A DNA stretch of 39,326 nt from a virus, in the IMG/VR virus record IMGVR_UViG_3300047457_000387, positions 1-39,326 of that record; one strand, given 5' to 3'. Positions within the stretch are counted from its first letter, which is position 1, and each line of letters starts with the position of its first letter. Under the pieces are notes generated by a model, which saw only the letters and a program-made list of their open reading frames with translations, was not told the DNA's origin and searched no databases. Both the position numbers and the translations under genes were made by a program. Positions 12,093-36,054 of the stretch are shown piece by piece.

Positions 12093-13727
12093 TTAATTAA
12101 AGTATTTCATTCTTAAAATTGCTGCTATATATGACAAATCTGCATCAATGTTTTCATCTTCGTGAATAATATCAATGTCTTGCGTATACTCAATAGGTAT
12201 TGCTTCATGTTGAATTTGTTGTACTTGAGCTTCTTGTATCTTTTCTTGTTTTACAGATTTTATTGCTTGTAACTTTGCTTTTTGTATCTTTAATGCAAGT
12301 TTTAGTTTTACGATTAAATTATCTAATCCTAAATCCTCATTGAGTCTTATATCTTGCTCAACCAACCTAATTTCTGACTTTACTTCATCTTCTTTTTCTT
12401 CAAGTTCAAAGTAAGTAAGATAATTGAATTCTTCTTTAAATTGCTTGACAGTTTTTTTACGGATAGGAGCAACGTATGTTTCCCATCCGCTACCTTGTGG
12501 AGTTGATATTGTGATATTTACATTAAACCCACTAGCAGTAGCGACTGCGCGAGTTGCAGTAATATTTAATCCACCACCTAAAGCTATACTTGCATCAAAT
12601 CCACTAGCTGTTGCAGTAGCAAGTGTAGTGGTGATAAAGAGCTGTCGATCTACATTAGCTGTAAATCCACTTGCATTTGCAGTAGCAAGTGTAGTTGTAA
12701 TAGAGAGTTGCCGATCTACATTTGCAGAGAATGCACTTGCGGTTGCAGTAGCAAGTGTTGCAGTTACATTAAGATCACTGCTAATATTAGCTGTAAATCC
12801 ACTTGCAGTAGTGGTAGCAAGTGTAGTTGTAATAGAGAGTTGCCGATCTACATTTGCTGTAAAACCACTTGTAGTAGCCGTTCCTAATGATGTTGCGATT
12901 ACAAGTTGTCGATCTACATTGGCAGTAAACCCACTAGCATCAGCAGTAACTAGTGTAGTTGTGATATTAAGATCACTACTAGTTACACTAACAAATACCT
13001 TTCGCTCTTGGGGGGCGAAGATTTGATTCCACGCCTTGCTCAGTGTGCTTGCATCAATAAGTGCTTGGTCGCTAAAACACTCGTCAGGAGAGATTGCAAA
13101 CAACGCGATCTCAACCGGAGCTGTATATTGATCTGTCCCATTGGATGTTGTTGTGTACCCGCCAACGTTACAATTATAATGATTAAACGTCTGTGCGCTT
13201 GTGCCTGAATTAAGCACTCCGTTCAATGCTACCCTTGCCCTTCCGGTGCTTCCATTGTAACTCCAAGTTAGCGCACTATATTCCCCCACAGTGGCGGTGT
13301 TGGAAGACGCTAACATCACTACCACCTCAGCTTTTATCAGTGCTACCCCTGCACTATTCAGCTGGATATAGAATCCCCCCAGCCCGGCTACTATAGACCT
13401 GAAGCTAGTTGTGTATAGAGCGGCAGGGTAACTACCAAGATTTTTAAAAACTATTAGTCCGGATGACGCATTTAGTTGCATTCCAGCATTTACGCCGAAA
13501 TCAACTCCAGAGTTGTAATTGCTCGCCGTTACTTTGACTGCCCGCCCGGCAGTACCTACGCCGTACTCAGTAGAGTTACGCAGCGTGGCGGAGGGGGCCG
13601 CTTCTCCAAATAAACTGACTCCTGGCACAAAGACACACGCCCATCTCCGATTACCAAAAACAGTTCCTTTGTTTATCTGTACCGGACTCTGTGGCTGGCT
13701 AGTCCGCGTGATTTTACGGCGTATCAT
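12093..13727 (-). CDS. LamG-like accessory virion protein with seven 22-residue repeats
   Basis: 544 residues in three parts. Residues about 25-240 have a concanavalin/LamG-like pattern (SALTWSYNGSTGRARVALNG and, near its end, WNQIFAPQERKVFV), common in phage carbohydrate-binding surface proteins. Residues 250-405 are seven near-identical 22-residue repeats. Residues about 405-544 are a charged helical tail. It sits between the portal block and the scaffold gene rather than with the fibres, so it may be a head fibre or capsid-surface adhesin. The repeat DNA makes copy-number change by recombination likely. Confidence 0.6.
   Translation of the reverse strand: MIRRKITRTSQPQSPVQINKGTVFGNRRWACVFVPGVSLFGEAAPSATLRNSTEYGVGTAGRAVKVTASNYNSGVDFGVNAGMQLNASSGLIVFKNLGSYPAALYTTSFRSIVAGLGGFYIQLNSAGVALIKAEVVVMLASSNTATVGEYSALTWSYNGSTGRARVALNGVLNSGTSAQTFNHYNCNVGGYTTTSNGTDQYTAPVEIALFAISPDECFSDQALIDASTLSKAWNQIFAPQERKVFVSVTSSDLNITTTLVTADASGFTANVDRQLVIATSLGTATTSGFTANVDRQLSITTTLATTTASGFTANISSDLNVTATLATATASAFSANVDRQLSITTTLATANASGFTANVDRQLFITTTLATATASGFDASIALGGGLNITATRAVATASGFNVNITISTPQGSGWETYVAPIRKKTVKQFKEEFNYLTYFELEEKEDEVKSEIRLVEQDIRLNEDLGLDNLIVKLKLALKIQKAKLQAIKSVKQEKIQEAQVQQIQHEAIPIEYTQDIDIIHEDENIDADLSYIAAILRMKYFN
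12513..12980 (-). repeat. Seven tandem 66-bp coding repeats
   Basis: Six units of 66 bp and a last unit of 72 bp encode variations of DRQLSITTTLATATASGFTANV. Two variants alternate at the unit start, either SSDLN or DRQL. Conservation is at the DNA level as well as the protein level, suggesting recent expansion by recombination or slippage. The long plus-strand reading frame here is only a shadow of the repeat. Confidence 0.9.
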
Positions 13728-17721: not shown

Positions 17722-19842
17722 TTATATCCCAGTCATCTCATCCAATGGTTCATAATCATCATAAGAACTATGCGGTTGATATGTAGTCTCTTGAAGGTGG
17801 CTTATATAGGCAAGGGCATCCAAACAATTATGAACAAGAACTCCATCAGCAAAAAACTCATGCCTGCCTTCAACCATTAGGTCGTAAACTGGCACGTTTT
17901 TCTCTTGCAAGCCTTGCCTGTTTTCTGTTTGTACATTCTCTACTACAAATTTTCTGGATTGACATTTTTGGCTTGAAATTATTCCCGCATTCACAACATT
18001 GCTTTTCAGGAAGGTCTCGCATGAGAGATCGTTTAGCATGTTCTCTATGCCAAGCAATTCCTTCTGGAGATGCATGCCATTTTTTTGTAAGGTGTCTGAT
18101 ACTTTCCAAATGCCGCAAACTTTGTTCTGTTTTTCCTCTGAGACTTCGCTCTTCTCTATGTTCGACTTGATGTGCGGCACTTGATAAGCAGACAAGGTTG
18201 GAGATGTCGTTGTTTTCTGAATTCCCGTCTGCATGGTGTACATGGTGTCCATCTGGAATTCGCCCGTTATGAAATTCCCAAATGTCTCGATGAAGCGATC
18301 TTGGATTTTCCTTCCATTTCGAGTGGCTTGTATAGTATAACCTGTGGCTTCGTTGTTTAGCATTTGGATAGCGGTGATACAATTTTCCGTTAAATTCAAT
18401 GGTTTCTCGCATGATACATCCTTTAATGAATGACATTCAATGATTATATCATCGTCACTTAAAGAATCAAGACTTACCCATTGCCTATTTAATGTAAATA
18501 TCCTATGTTCAGGTGTTGCTATAATACCGTATCGAGTGATAACTTCTTTATTGCCTTTACACCACGCTTTTAATACCTTTTTGAATTCACCTGAGCCAGT
18601 TAAGACATAATCATCAGTAGTAACCTCAGATATACATTTCTCACCGTTAAGAGTCATTATTAATGTGCCAGCAGGGAAGCAATCATCATGTACTCTTGGT
18701 GATGGGAATCCTATCATTTCACGCTTAATTTCATCCCAATTCTCATCTTCATTGAATACAATCCTACCATGCTCTAATAACCCTTGCAATGCGTATACTA
18801 TCCTATTCTCTTTTGCAATACCACCAGTAGAAATTGAATGTATATGTGCAAATACTTGGTTCTTACGCATCAAATCTTCCAAATAAGGAAGAACAGCTCT
18901 CATTAAAGCACCTTTTTCTATCCCAATCGCCAAAGGTTTATGTGTTCGTATTGCCATCAACACTCTAACCGCCGATTCTCGTACATCCCACCTGCCATAA
19001 TCAATCTTCTGTACCCACCAATGACCATTCTCATAAACTCTAACTACTGCTATTGCAAAATAGTCAAGATTGCTCTTTTTACCTGTTTCAGTAGTAACCC
19101 CAGTATAACCCGAAGGATCAATAGCAATATAAGTAGCATATGAGCCAAGTGGTGCTTTACCAGTTTTTAGCCACTCTATTCTTAGTAAGTTAGAACCAGC
19201 CGTATCCCATGATGCTTCATACTCTCTGAAGAACTCAGCACTGCCCATAGACTTTTTAGCAGCTTCAATCTCTGATCTCTTGATATAAGGATTATCAGCA
19301 GTAGTGAACAACCATGACTTCCATTCAGGATCATCACCATCCTGACCTCTATCAAATATCTTACGGAATTCAACTGCCTCAGGTTCAGGTGTGCCAATAA
19401 ACAATGCTCCCCCTTCCATATCAGACAAAGACGGTCTTATGCTACTTTCCCAAGTTCCATCCTTAATATCCTTCATTTCATCCAGAATCGCATAGAACAG
19501 TTTCTTACCTCTTAACCTGTCTGGCTTGTCAGCACCACGAATCTGTATCTTTACACCATTCTTTAAAGTGATATCACCATCATTGATGTGTGCTTTAGCA
19601 ATAAGCGGTTCTGCAAGCATCATTACCAAGTCCCACATCAAGTCATATGCCATCCCCTGAGTAGGTGCTACATACATCACCCTTGCATCCATTGAAGGGC
19701 ATTGTAGAGCCTTTGTAATCAACATTACAGCCGATAACCGAGTCTTACCACATCGTCTGCCAGCAACAATCACTTTGAACCGTGTATCGTCAGTATAGAC
19801 AGTTCTCTGCCATGGGGTTAGATCAAACTTTAACTCAGCCAT
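17722..19842 (-). CDS. terL: Terminase large subunit containing an intein
   Basis: 706 codons encode a 421-residue terminase interrupted by a 285-residue intein. The ATPase has Walker A GRRCGKT (residues 28-34), Walker B LFYAILDE (115-122) and a GTPEP coupling segment (150-154). The nuclease has the acidic residues IAIDPSG (Asp242), GIEKG (Glu309) and the motif HDD/CLDALAY. The intein splits that last motif between Asp387 and Cys673, so unspliced protein should be unable to cut DNA. The N-extein is residues 1-387 and the C-extein 673-706. It packages the genome together with terS, whose end overlaps the start by eight bases. Confidence 0.93.
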   Translation of the reverse strand: MAELKFDLTPWQRTVYTDDTRFKVIVAGRRCGKTRLSAVMLITKALQCPSMDARVMYVAPTQGMAYDLMWDLVMMLAEPLIAKAHINDGDITLKNGVKIQIRGADKPDRLRGKKLFYAILDEMKDIKDGTWESSIRPSLSDMEGGALFIGTPEPEAVEFRKIFDRGQDGDDPEWKSWLFTTADNPYIKRSEIEAAKKSMGSAEFFREYEASWDTAGSNLLRIEWLKTGKAPLGSYATYIAIDPSGYTGVTTETGKKSNLDYFAIAVVRVYENGHWWVQKIDYGRWDVRESAVRVLMAIRTHKPLAIGIEKGALMRAVLPYLEDLMRKNQVFAHIHSISTGGIAKENRIVYALQGLLEHGRIVFNEDENWDEIKREMIGFPSPRVHDDCFPAGTLIMTLNGEKCISEVTTDDYVLTGSGEFKKVLKAWCKGNKEVITRYGIIATPEHRIFTLNRQWVSLDSLSDDDIIIECHSLKDVSCEKPLNLTENCITAIQMLNNEATGYTIQATRNGRKIQDRFIETFGNFITGEFQMDTMYTMQTGIQKTTTSPTLSAYQVPHIKSNIEKSEVSEEKQNKVCGIWKVSDTLQKNGMHLQKELLGIENMLNDLSCETFLKSNVVNAGIISSQKCQSRKFVVENVQTENRQGLQEKNVPVYDLMVEGRHEFFADGVLVHNCLDALAYISHLQETTYQPHSSYDDYEPLDEMTGI
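17870..18412 (-). CDS. HNH homing endonuclease nested out of frame inside the intein
   Basis: 180 residues from ATG at 18412, preceded by AAAGGA at seven bases. An ATG at 18436 in the same frame is possible but would lie at the predicted transcription start. Residues about 36-83 form an HNH domain: LHRDIWEFHNGRIPDG, HHVHHADGNSENN, DISNLVCLSSAAHQVEH, with the catalytic HH and the Asn and His ligands. A C-terminal zinc knuckle follows: CCECGNNFK and ICSRECTNRK (residues about 142-170). This is the layout of freestanding phage HNH homing nucleases. The whole gene lies inside the intein on the same strand but in a different frame, overlapping even the start of block F. Its likely target is an uninterrupted terL. 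Confidence 0.9.
   Translation of the reverse strand: MRETIEFNGKLYHRYPNAKQRSHRLYYTSHSKWKENPRSLHRDIWEFHNGRIPDGHHVHHADGNSENNDISNLVCLSSAAHQVEHREERSLRGKTEQSLRHLESIRHLTKKWHASPEGIAWHREHAKRSLMRDLPEKQCCECGNNFKPKMSIQKICSRECTNRKQARLAREKRASLRPNG
18443..18470 (-). promoter_or_regulatory. Internal promoter for the HNH gene
   Basis: On the minus strand TTGATT (18465-18470) and a perfect TATAAT (18443-18448) are separated by 16 bases. The start of transcription would fall at about 18436, some 24 bases before the ATG at 18412, leaving room for the AAAGGA ribosome site. These signals lie inside intein coding sequence just after block B, so the nuclease can be made independently of full-length terL translation. 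Confidence 0.7.
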
Positions 19843-20293
19843 TACTTTCTATCACATTCAACTCTGGTCGAGCATCACCAATAACAATAGTAAAATTAGT
19901 ACCACCAGTACTACCCATCCCACCATCAGACTTATCACCCCACTTAACCCTATCCAACTTAGATGCTATCTTCATATAATGCTCAGACTGCATCCTGACT
20001 AACGAAACTTCCTCAGGTTCAGCATTCTCAACAAGATTAGTAGCCTTCCACTCCAATACGTCAGCCCTTGCTCTACCAGCCAAGGAAATAGCATCAGGAC
20101 AGTTTAACTCAATCCAGCCACGCAATACTACATACGGGACTCCAAACTCCTCCTTAGATATGTCAGCAGGGTTATCACCTTCAGCTAACCTCTCTACCAG
20201 TATATCTCGTATGAAGTCATTGCCTTTAGATGCTACCAGATCATCTAATAACTGATAACCAAGTAGTTTTAGTGGTATTAACTTATCACTCAT
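19835..20293 (-). CDS. terS: Terminase small subunit
   Basis: 152 residues directly upstream of terL, overlapping its start. The N-terminal half is helical with a helix-turn-helix-like part (GDNPADISKEEFGVPYVVLRGWIE). The middle (residues about 75-118) is a long helix suited to ring oligomerisation. The C-terminus is flexible and ends in short strands (TNFTIVIGDARPELN), expected to touch terL. It would recognise the packaging site. No clear Shine-Dalgarno precedes the ATG, and the interrupted zinc-ribbon frame ends 11 bases before it. Confidence 0.8.
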   Translation of the reverse strand: MSDKLIPLKLLGYQLLDDLVASKGNDFIRDILVERLAEGDNPADISKEEFGVPYVVLRGWIELNCPDAISLAGRARADVLEWKATNLVENAEPEEVSLVRMQSEHYMKIASKLDRVKWGDKSDGGMGSTGGTNFTIVIGDARPELNVIESNG

Positions 20294-30272: not shown

Positions 30273-30773
30273 ATGATAACCACAACATTAAACAGGATTA
30301 AGGAATGCAGGCCATGTCAAAATGGATGGAGGAAATTACTTAATCACCTGGGCAAAACAGAAGCTGACGACGAACCGTTGCCGTTTTCCGTGATTGTTGA
30401 ATCAAATGGACTAGATGATGCGTTATGGTGCTGTAGAGCAGAACCGCAATACGCACGAGTATGGAGGTTATACGCTGTATGGTGCGCTAGACGTGTTAGT
30501 CATTTATTGACCGATCCGCGAAGTTTAAACGCGCTTGATGTGGCGGAACAACACGCAAACGGGAATGCAACTGACGCAGAATTGGATGCTGCGTGGGATG
30601 CTGCGTGGGATGCTGCGGAGGCTGCTGCGGAGGCTGCTGCGTGGGATGCTGCGTGGGATGCTGCGGAGGCTGCTGCGGGGGCCGCGGGCCGCGGGCTGTG
30701 TGTAGCGAGGGATGCTGAACGTGAGGCTCAAAAAATTGAGTTCCTGCGTATAGTTGGAGGATTAAATGACTGA
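30273..30773 (+). CDS. Ala-rich protein with AWDAA repeats
   Basis: 166 residues. The N-terminal 100 residues are ordinary, with WCCRAEPQYARVWRLYAVWCARRV. Residues about 105-140 are pentad repeats of DAAWDAAWDAAEAAAEAAA type, an Ala-rich helix with a repeating Trp/Asp/Glu face. The repeat DNA (30586-30680) is far richer in G+C than its surroundings and ends in a GGGCCGCGGGCCGCGG-like palindrome. Such Ala-repeat proteins recur in phages and vary in repeat number. No function is established. Confidence 0.6.
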   Translation: MITTTLNRIKECRPCQNGWRKLLNHLGKTEADDEPLPFSVIVESNGLDDALWCCRAEPQYARVWRLYAVWCARRVSHLLTDPRSLNALDVAEQHANGNATDAELDAAWDAAWDAAEAAAEAAAWDAAWDAAEAAAGAAGRGLCVARDAEREAQKIEFLRIVGGLND

Positions 30774-30858: not shown

Positions 30859-31502
30859 TGGCTGATTTGAAATTTACAACAATGCGCGACCCAATACCGC
30901 CAAGGCTAATTAACAAATTACCAAAGCCTACAAAGCAACAAACTGACGAAGTTAAGGCAGATTATAAAAAAGGTATTCGTTGCGATATTTGCGGTGGCTG
31001 GCATCATCCAAAAGTGGTTCACTTGGATTACTTTGGTCATGCTGCTCTTACATCTATGTTACTGGATGTAGACCCAAACTGGACATGGGAGCCATTAGCA
31101 TTGGGGCAAGATGGATTGCCTGTAATAGATAAGGATGGGGGGATGTGGATTAAACTAACTGTGCTAGGTGTTACTAGGTTAGGTTATGGAGATGCACAAG
31201 GCAAGACTGGTGGTGATGCTATGAAAGAGCGCATTGGAGACGCTTTGCGTAACGCTGCGATGCGATTTGGTGCTGCTTTAGAGTTGTGGCATAAAGGGGA
31301 CTTGCACGGAGAAGATACAGTGGCAATTGAACACATAACAGACGACCAAGTAACTGTGATAGATGATCTAATAAAAGAAGTGAAAGCAGACAAGAAAGCG
31401 TTTCTTGAATGGCTGAAAGTTGAAAGTTTGGACCTGTTGCCAGCAGCAAATTATCAAAAGTATATTGATGCACTTAAAAAGAAAAAGGAGGCAAATAAAT
31501 GA
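30858..31502 (+). CDS. Rad52-like single-strand annealing protein
   Basis: 214 residues. The segment GHAALTSMLLDVDPNWTWEPL, followed by GGMWIKLTVLGVTRLGYGDA and DAMKERIGDALRNAAMRFGAALELWHKGDL, is the conserved core of phage Rad52/Rad22-type recombinases. A Cys/His set upstream (RCDICGGWHHPKVVH) may bind zinc. It would anneal complementary strands for recombination and genome repair, working with the SSB encoded downstream. The C-terminal 50 residues are a charged linker and helix. Start overlap with the EQ-repeat gene sets its translation. Confidence 0.75.
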   Translation: MADLKFTTMRDPIPPRLINKLPKPTKQQTDEVKADYKKGIRCDICGGWHHPKVVHLDYFGHAALTSMLLDVDPNWTWEPLALGQDGLPVIDKDGGMWIKLTVLGVTRLGYGDAQGKTGGDAMKERIGDALRNAAMRFGAALELWHKGDLHGEDTVAIEHITDDQVTVIDDLIKEVKADKKAFLEWLKVESLDLLPAANYQKYIDALKKKKEANK

Positions 31503-32062
31503 GTAATACAATTGAATTCAATGAATTTAACAAGATTCCTCGTTGGTCGCGGAACATAGTAATAACAGAAAAAATTGATGGAACAAATGCAAGTATTTTT
31601 ATTGGTGATAATGGTGAATTTTTAACTGGTAGCCGTACACGCTGGATTACACCAGAGAATGATAATTTTGGCTTTAGCAAATGGGCGCACGATAACAAAG
31701 AGGACTTGCTAACTCTTGGAGTTGGTCATCATTTTGGGGAATGGTGGGGTTCTGGTATTCAACGAAAGTATAACCAAGATAATAAGCGGTTTAGTCTATT
31801 TAATATATCTAAATGGAACTCAACAAGACCAATGTGCTGTGATGTTGTTCCTGTGCTTTATTGCGGTATATTGGACGAAAAGGCTATTAATGAATCTATT
31901 GAAATCTTACGAAGAAACGGAAGTTTGGCCGCGCCCGGATTTATGAACCCAGAAGGGATTGTGATATGGCACGTCGCTGCACGACAATATTTCAAAAAAA
32001 CCATAGAAAAGGATGATGCGCCAAAAAGTGTTGCTGAGCGTATTTTAATACAAAGGATATAA
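31499..32062 (+). CDS. RNA ligase (Rnl2-type nucleotidyltransferase domain)
   Basis: 187 residues. Motif I is VITEKIDGTN with the nucleotidyl-accepting Lys25. Motif III-like FGEWWGSGIQRKY, motif IV PEGIVIW and motif V FKKTIEKDD follow in order. It is about half the length of T4 Rnl2, so it has the catalytic domain but not a large C-terminal domain. RNA ligases of this type reseal broken RNA such as tRNA cut by host anticodon nucleases. The same transcript ends with a tRNA gene. Its start overlaps the annealing gene stop. Confidence 0.85.
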   Translation: MSNTIEFNEFNKIPRWSRNIVITEKIDGTNASIFIGDNGEFLTGSRTRWITPENDNFGFSKWAHDNKEDLLTLGVGHHFGEWWGSGIQRKYNQDNKRFSLFNISKWNSTRPMCCDVVPVLYCGILDEKAINESIEILRRNGSLAAPGFMNPEGIVIWHVAARQYFKKTIEKDDAPKSVAERILIQRI

Positions 32063-35980: not shown

Positions 35981-36054
35981 GAGTCGTTAGTGTAACGGTA
36001 ACACGCCGATCTCCAAAATCGGTAATGAGAGTTCGATTCTCCCACGATTCGCCA
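35981..36054 (+). tRNA. tRNA-Trp (anticodon CCA)
   Basis: The acceptor stem GAGTCGT/ACGATTC (seven pairs with one G-U) carries discriminator G73 and an encoded CCA (36052-36054). The D stem GTGT/ACAC has the conserved GG in its loop. The anticodon stem CCGAT/ATCGG has loop CTCCAAA, anticodon CCA with A37. The T arm has TTCGATT with one A-C mismatch in the stem. It reads UGG and is not an amber or opal suppressor. It closes the plus-strand unit that also codes for an RNA ligase. Confidence 0.93.

Follow-up and report, generated by a model that had tools for sequence, protein, structure and literature searches.

How can an intein spread among phages when its own reading frame holds no endonuclease, and what is a complete nuclease gene doing in another frame of the same DNA? 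Both questions are raised by the terminase large subunit gene (terL) of a 39,326-base virus contig from IMG/VR (record IMGVR_UViG_3300047457_000387), the whole of which is called the window here. The terL open reading frame (ORF) runs through 706 codons without a stop or frameshift and includes an intein unit of 855 bp (17827-18681). The linker of this intein shares its DNA with a gene for an HNH endonuclease, which is read in the -1 frame. We conclude that the mobile unit is very likely a mini-intein plus a separately translated, out-of-frame HNH homing endonuclease, the two moving together. An earlier note on this DNA had the coordinates of the overlap right; the strand, which it left unstated, is now assigned as minus. 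The parts of the terL frame are as follows.

17722..19842, minus strand: terL ORF, 706 aa, the uninterrupted frame that contains the intein (Terminase_6N and PHROG terminase large subunit matches).
18682..19842, minus strand: TerL N-extein, with its C-terminal end ...PSPRVHDD at the RNase H-like nuclease motif (empty-site alignment).
17827..18681, minus strand: class-1 intein, 285 aa, from Cys1 to His-Asn (splicing residues, Pfam, AlphaFold2, Foldseek).
18433..18681, minus strand: N-terminal splicing half, residues 1-83, blocks A and B, with Cys1 and ATPEH (AlphaFold2 predicted local distance difference test, pLDDT, of about 97; alignments).
17917..18432, minus strand: shadow linker, intein residues 84-255, DNA common with the HNH gene (no family match; predicted disordered).
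17827..17916, minus strand: C-terminal splicing half, residues 256-285, blocks F and G, VYDL...VLVHN (alignment and AlphaFold2).
17725..17826, minus strand: TerL C-extein, beginning with Cys+1 (CLDALAYISHL...) (empty-site alignment).

The intein matches the Pfam family Intein_splicing at 4.5e-12, above the family cut-off. The class-1 signature that the earlier note had reported in the terL frame is present in full: Cys1, the block B ATPEH, the terminal His-Asn and Cys+1. Residues C1, T56 and H59 are invariant in the family alignments. The note had also seen no recognisable nuclease in the linker, and a Pfam family search of the in-frame linker likewise matched no nuclease family. The window intein has a Hint-type splicing domain and is without a canonical in-frame endonuclease between blocks B and F. 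In the AlphaFold2 model, residues 1-83 and 256-285 have a pLDDT of approximately 97-98 and the linker has 45-52, so the linker is predicted to be disordered between two folded splicing halves. Foldseek matched the intein model to mini-inteins (probability 1.0) and split inteins in the PDB. A group I intron carrying the HNH gene was rejected as a candidate, since no group I intron RNA at the locus matched Rfam up to E = 1.

The second frame was described in the earlier note as a full HNH and zinc-knuckle protein of 180 residues, and this description holds. Searching the two frames separately, as had been proposed there, placed the splicing domain in the terL frame and an HNH_3 domain (2.3e-16) in the -1 frame. 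The features of the nested gene are the following.

17870..18412, minus strand: HNH endonuclease gene, 180 codons plus a TGA stop, in the -1 frame relative to the intein (HNH_3 match, AlphaFold2).
18419..18424, minus strand: Shine-Dalgarno sequence AAAGGA, 6 nt before the HNH ATG (sequence; enrichment in relatives).
18167..18295, minus strand: HNH_3 domain of the nested protein (Pfam).
17933..17998, minus strand: zinc-ribbon-like CxxC...CxxxC, family-invariant residues C139, C142, C156 and C160 (alignments).

The AlphaFold2 model of the nested protein has a mean pLDDT of 93.8. The catalytic H and N and the zinc-binding residues are invariant in two large alignments of 72 and 64 proteins.

Could the terL frame be open across the nested gene by chance? 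To find out, we ran 3000 trials in which the HNH protein sequence was unchanged and its synonymous codons were sampled according to local usage. On average, approximately 7 stops then arose in the intein frame, and no trial left it open; the observed number is 0 across the intact 180-codon HNH ORF, and both frames are thus open through the overlap as the earlier note had stated. The third frame of the region, under the same randomisation, has approximately 23 stops expected and 13 observed. The register used by the intein is therefore inherently poor in stops, yet stops still have to be kept out of it.

To place the window among its relatives, loci were gathered by scans with the intein, the HNH protein and a nested-HNH profile, together with annotated phage records and the window itself, giving at least 170 loci. 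They were classified with profiles for both splicing halves and for HNH. In at least 106 of them, the HNH gene lies out of frame within a single ORF that holds both intein halves; at least 95 remain at 90% HNH identity and at least 36 at 50%, these counts from viral scans being lower bounds. The host genes of these nested inteins are terminase large subunits from several very different families, found in phages and prophages. Cys1 is present in all 93 loci whose start is included, and in the main set the intein mostly ends in (H/S)N followed by C, S or T. Over the at least 95 distinct nested loci, no host-frame stop was observed where about 397 were expected; because these loci share ancestry and are not independent trials, the figure gauges how persistently stops have been excluded. 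Free-standing or split HNH relatives carry 1-12 stops in that register, with the exception of locus L124, which has none and whose frame is broken upstream. Chance is rejected as the explanation of the open frame (0 of 3000 trials; 0 against 397 stops in the family), and the selection proposed in the earlier note to keep the host frame open agrees with these counts.

A frameshift introduced by sequencing or assembly is also rejected, because the arrangement is common to independent contigs and isolated phages. An independent contig (L001/L003) has it with 95% identity to the window intein and 98% to its HNH protein, and so do the isolated phages Tetrasphaera TJE1 and Acinetobacter Highwayman. 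The nested arrangement is a conserved design by these sequence comparisons, and not a sequencing error. The earlier note had named relatives with the HNH domain fused in frame to the intein as evidence that would speak for such an error, and none was found in the nested family. The in-frame HNH inteins at loci L153 and L158 belong to a different, diverged group; these are conventional inteins in bacterial proteins (ribonucleotide reductase-like by eye) and contrast with the nested form. In the records of TJE1, Highwayman and Rhodobacteraceae phage LS06 the gene is labelled just "terminase large subunit", a label under which the nested endonuclease is hidden. Two further loci are of interest as observations. 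Inside the nested clade, L124 (3295-4800, Prevotellaceae) has the N-terminal intein half frameshifted from the rest, for which a recent break, an assembly error or a new split intein are candidates. In Brochothrix phage BL3 (NC_015254), terL overlaps a fragment at 2226-2414 that matches solely the zinc-ribbon end of the HNH family and is possibly a remnant.

The HNH protein could be made either from its own start or by a slip of ribosomes reading terL. The region upstream of HNH starts pairs with the anti-Shine-Dalgarno sequence better than matched control starts do (-5.4 versus -3.5 kcal/mol, p 2e-7). An ATG lies near the HNH start in the HNH frame in 83 of 95 loci, compared with 50 and 42 in the other frames. 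In-frame stops lie upstream of the HNH start at a median distance of 39 nt, which leaves little room for a ribosomal slip. Taken together, these three features favour internal initiation over frameshifting as the source of the HNH protein. Frameshifting from the terL frame would yield a fusion of the N-terminal intein half with HNH, and the uniform -1 register (95 of 95 loci in the main set) would suit a -1 shift; this register is otherwise explained as the naturally stop-poor one (2-9 stops expected, versus 8-34 in the other). Since the HNH gene also has its own Shine-Dalgarno sequence and start codon, and no canonical slippery heptamer was seen by eye in the 24-nt gap of the window, we consider frameshifting most improbable.

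If the HNH protein is made and used, its frame should be the conserved one of the two. The comparison of synonymous and nonsynonymous constraint that the earlier note called for was run on both frames. The overlap has 14 changes between the window and L001, its nearest relative; 3 are nonsynonymous in the HNH frame and 12 in the intein frame. Divergence of the window from five more distant relatives is 31-39% for the HNH protein and 57-68% for the linker. These differences support purifying selection on the HNH frame and not on the linker residues. Fourfold sites of the HNH frame coincide with second positions of the intein frame, and they have changed less often than fourfold sites in the exteins (for example, 4 of 51 versus 55 of 174 for L005/L007). 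This suggests that the linker frame is under some constraint, which would act at least against stop codons; a more recent origin of the intein may also play a part in the low rate of change. The same data bear on the idea that the HNH frame is a decaying relic inside a now static mini-intein. A few relatives (L005, L007 and L011) have indeed lost C-terminal HNH residues. However, the active-site and zinc residues are invariant across the aligned families, only 3 of the 14 changes in the closest pair alter the HNH protein, and occupied and empty alleles exist in near-identical phages, as described below. We give decay very little credence.

A homing element should be found both present and absent at its site, and the earlier note had suggested looking for terL relatives with and without the nested frame. 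Both occur: beside the nested loci, 78 of 80 close TerL relatives have neither the intein nor this HNH in the stretch fetched, and their HDD^xDA motif is uninterrupted. The occupied locus L039 and the empty locus L221 have TerL exteins that are 99.05% identical over 422 aa, and they differ by a precise 888-bp insert and a change from Pro to Cys at position +1. In other pairs, such as L094/L113 and L102/L111, the intein and HNH are 64-71% identical and TerL just 23-29% (for L094/L113, HNH 67%, intein 64% and TerL 23%). In these pairs, similarity is far higher for the intein and HNH than for the TerL hosts, as homing predicts. Precise presence/absence polymorphism and transfer between unlike host genes are among the criteria by which HNH homing endonucleases are recognised, and both are seen here. 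The nested nuclease, judged from these patterns, probably spreads the intein insert.

The HNH protein might instead be a partner of TerL in packaging whose gene the intein captured, and it would then be kept for that role and not for homing. HNH proteins that act with terminase are known (see PMC10448857), and HK97 gp74 is an example of an HNH protein beside a terminase; the main family has terL as its host gene, and a free-standing HNH relative adjoins terS in Acinetobacter phage BP10. The 78 of 80 close TerL relatives that lack this HNH in the fetched flanks argue that it is not a needed part of packaging. The higher identity of intein and HNH than of TerL in several pairs also stands against this role, and a second intein site in terL holds an endonuclease VII-type gene instead. 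A packaging function is, on this evidence, very unlikely.

The mini-intein with its separately translated homing endonuclease would work in the following way. The terL frame would encode an intein consisting of the splicing domain only, its long linker being a by-product of the other frame. The intein would excise after translation, splicing efficiently despite the disordered linker, and leave a normal TerL. A ribosome that starts at the internal Shine-Dalgarno sequence would read the -1 frame and make the separate 180-aa HNH/zinc-ribbon enzyme. In co-infecting phages, this enzyme would cut or nick intein-less terL at the HDD^xDA codons of the conserved nuclease motif, and repair would copy the whole 855-bp unit into the cut allele.

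The earlier note had proposed just such a homing nuclease, separate from the intein but encoded in the shadow of its linker and moving with it as one DNA unit. The proposal is supported, at the level of sequence, by the nested gene's own Shine-Dalgarno sequence and start, the purifying selection on its frame, the absence of host-frame stops, the disordered linker, the empty alleles and the greater similarity of intein and HNH than of the host genes. Several observations weigh against it. The Shine-Dalgarno sequence is weak or absent in approximately 40% of the relatives. The partial correlation between HNH and intein given TerL is small (0.16), though above all 300 permutations, and that between HNH and TerL given the intein is 0.26. 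The only sequence-profile match of the HNH protein in the PDB is I-HmuI (PDB 1U3E), and it is weak (E 0.008); Foldseek also gave only weak PDB matches to the HNH model (I-HmuI E 0.47). L039 and L221 resembled a co-conversion tract when compared, but this claim was dropped because the flank of the site is conserved among the empty alleles too.

How general is the arrangement? At the ATPase site, the TerLs of L040 and L116 hold a further intein, and both of these inteins have an out-of-frame nuclease in the same register. The nested nuclease is an HNH_3 protein (3.6e-21) at L040:360-893 and an endonuclease VII (7.5e-21) at L116:2249-2899. A search with the L040 nuclease gave 24 nested loci, one of which is L040's own contig. 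A search with the L116 endonuclease VII gave 3 overlapping loci, one of them 100% identical to L116; in 2 of the 3, the C-terminal splicing half falls below the profile threshold. The other register (+2) is used by L095, L103, L109 and L274; of these, L095, L103 and L109 cluster together in the HNH tree (support 86/88). In L079 and L112, an in-frame LAGLIDADG-type intein (motif identified by eye) and a nested-HNH intein lie in one terL. These two and L272 are terL genes with at least two inteins, in-frame LAGLIDADG-type mixed with nested-HNH type.

In L132, L133, L134, L140, L141 and L145 (Bacillota and others), the two intein halves occupy different ORFs and the HNH gene lies in the gap; such split-intein terLs likely trans-splice. 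L138 and L031 are also terL split inteins with HNH between the halves, and the set spans bacterial genomes and Vibrio phage 1.238.A. In the HNH tree, which has many weak branches, the nested group excludes most of the split and free Bacillota forms and includes a few split or free forms. The tree is compatible with an HNH gene invading a mini-intein, as the earlier note had suggested, and with a split intein re-fusing. We lean slightly towards the view that out-of-frame "shadow" homing genes are a general feature of how mobile phage inteins are built, and one that has been overlooked. Two HNH_3 groups and an endonuclease VII type would then have invaded the linkers of mini-inteins at separate terL sites, almost always in the naturally stop-poor register, and the arrangement would be an evolutionary link from ordinary inteins to split inteins whose halves flank a free nuclease gene.

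The window intein resembles canonical full-length inteins with in-frame LAGLIDADG or HNH domains in its Hint splicing domain, its insertion at a conserved motif, its empty alleles and its horizontal spread. Unlike them, its splicing frame is without an endonuclease, and a gene of its own in another frame encodes the nuclease. Fractured genes, or split inteins whose halves are separated by a nuclease gene, were reportedly described by Dassa and colleagues in 2009. As in those, intein halves flank a separate endonuclease gene, and split forms exist in the nested family; in contrast, the halves in the window belong to one 706-aa ORF, which stays open across the nuclease gene in a register different from that gene's. 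I-HmuI is an intron-encoded nuclease. The nested protein would be of the same HNH homing-endonuclease type, but it is nested in an intein and the fold match is weak. Mycobacteriophage inteins likewise favour TerL as their host gene; those in TerL are all in the ATPase domain (Kelley et al. 2016, PMC5050341), whereas the window intein sits in the nuclease motif.

The ShiLan domain/Pacc40 insertion has an out-of-frame HNH gene in a methylase insert (Arsenault, Gosselin, Gogarten 2025, PMC11855218). Its authors found no intein or intron motifs and consider that the insert is retained in the methylase (PMC11855218). It shares with the window a complete out-of-frame HNH gene in an insert that is open in the host frame, and a disjunct, homing-like distribution. 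It differs in that the host frame of the window is a complete intein with predicted folded splicing halves, located in TerL, with an internal Shine-Dalgarno sequence and more than 100 examples. Our literature search returned only the ShiLan paper and a genome announcement for the same kind of case, and it found no description of an intein with an out-of-frame nuclease, though it did not reach Gosselin et al. 2025, Gorbalenya 1998 or Dassa 2009. The Gosselin et al. preprint on actinobacteriophage inteins ("non-canonical architecture") or Gorbalenya's "Non-canonical inteins" may describe part of the arrangement.

Elsewhere in the window, the minus-strand neighbours are terS (19835-20293), terL (17722-19842), a small ORF and a portal gene. 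A 544-aa ORF at 12093-13727 has TTLATATASGFTANVDRQL-like repeat units and no Pfam match, and an ORF at 30273-30773 has a run of Ala-Asp-Ala-Ala-Trp repeats close to its C-terminus. There is also a 187-aa RNA ligase family protein at 31499-32059 and a tRNA-Trp gene with a CCA anticodon at 35981-36054.

An intein of this kind would hold splicing and homing together in a single mobile unit, each with its own protein although the coding DNA is shared, and would explain a class of long inteins without a recognisable nuclease. It offers a testable route linking contiguous and split inteins, may supply inteins in which long disordered linkers are tolerated, and is a natural system in which to study selection on two overlapping frames.
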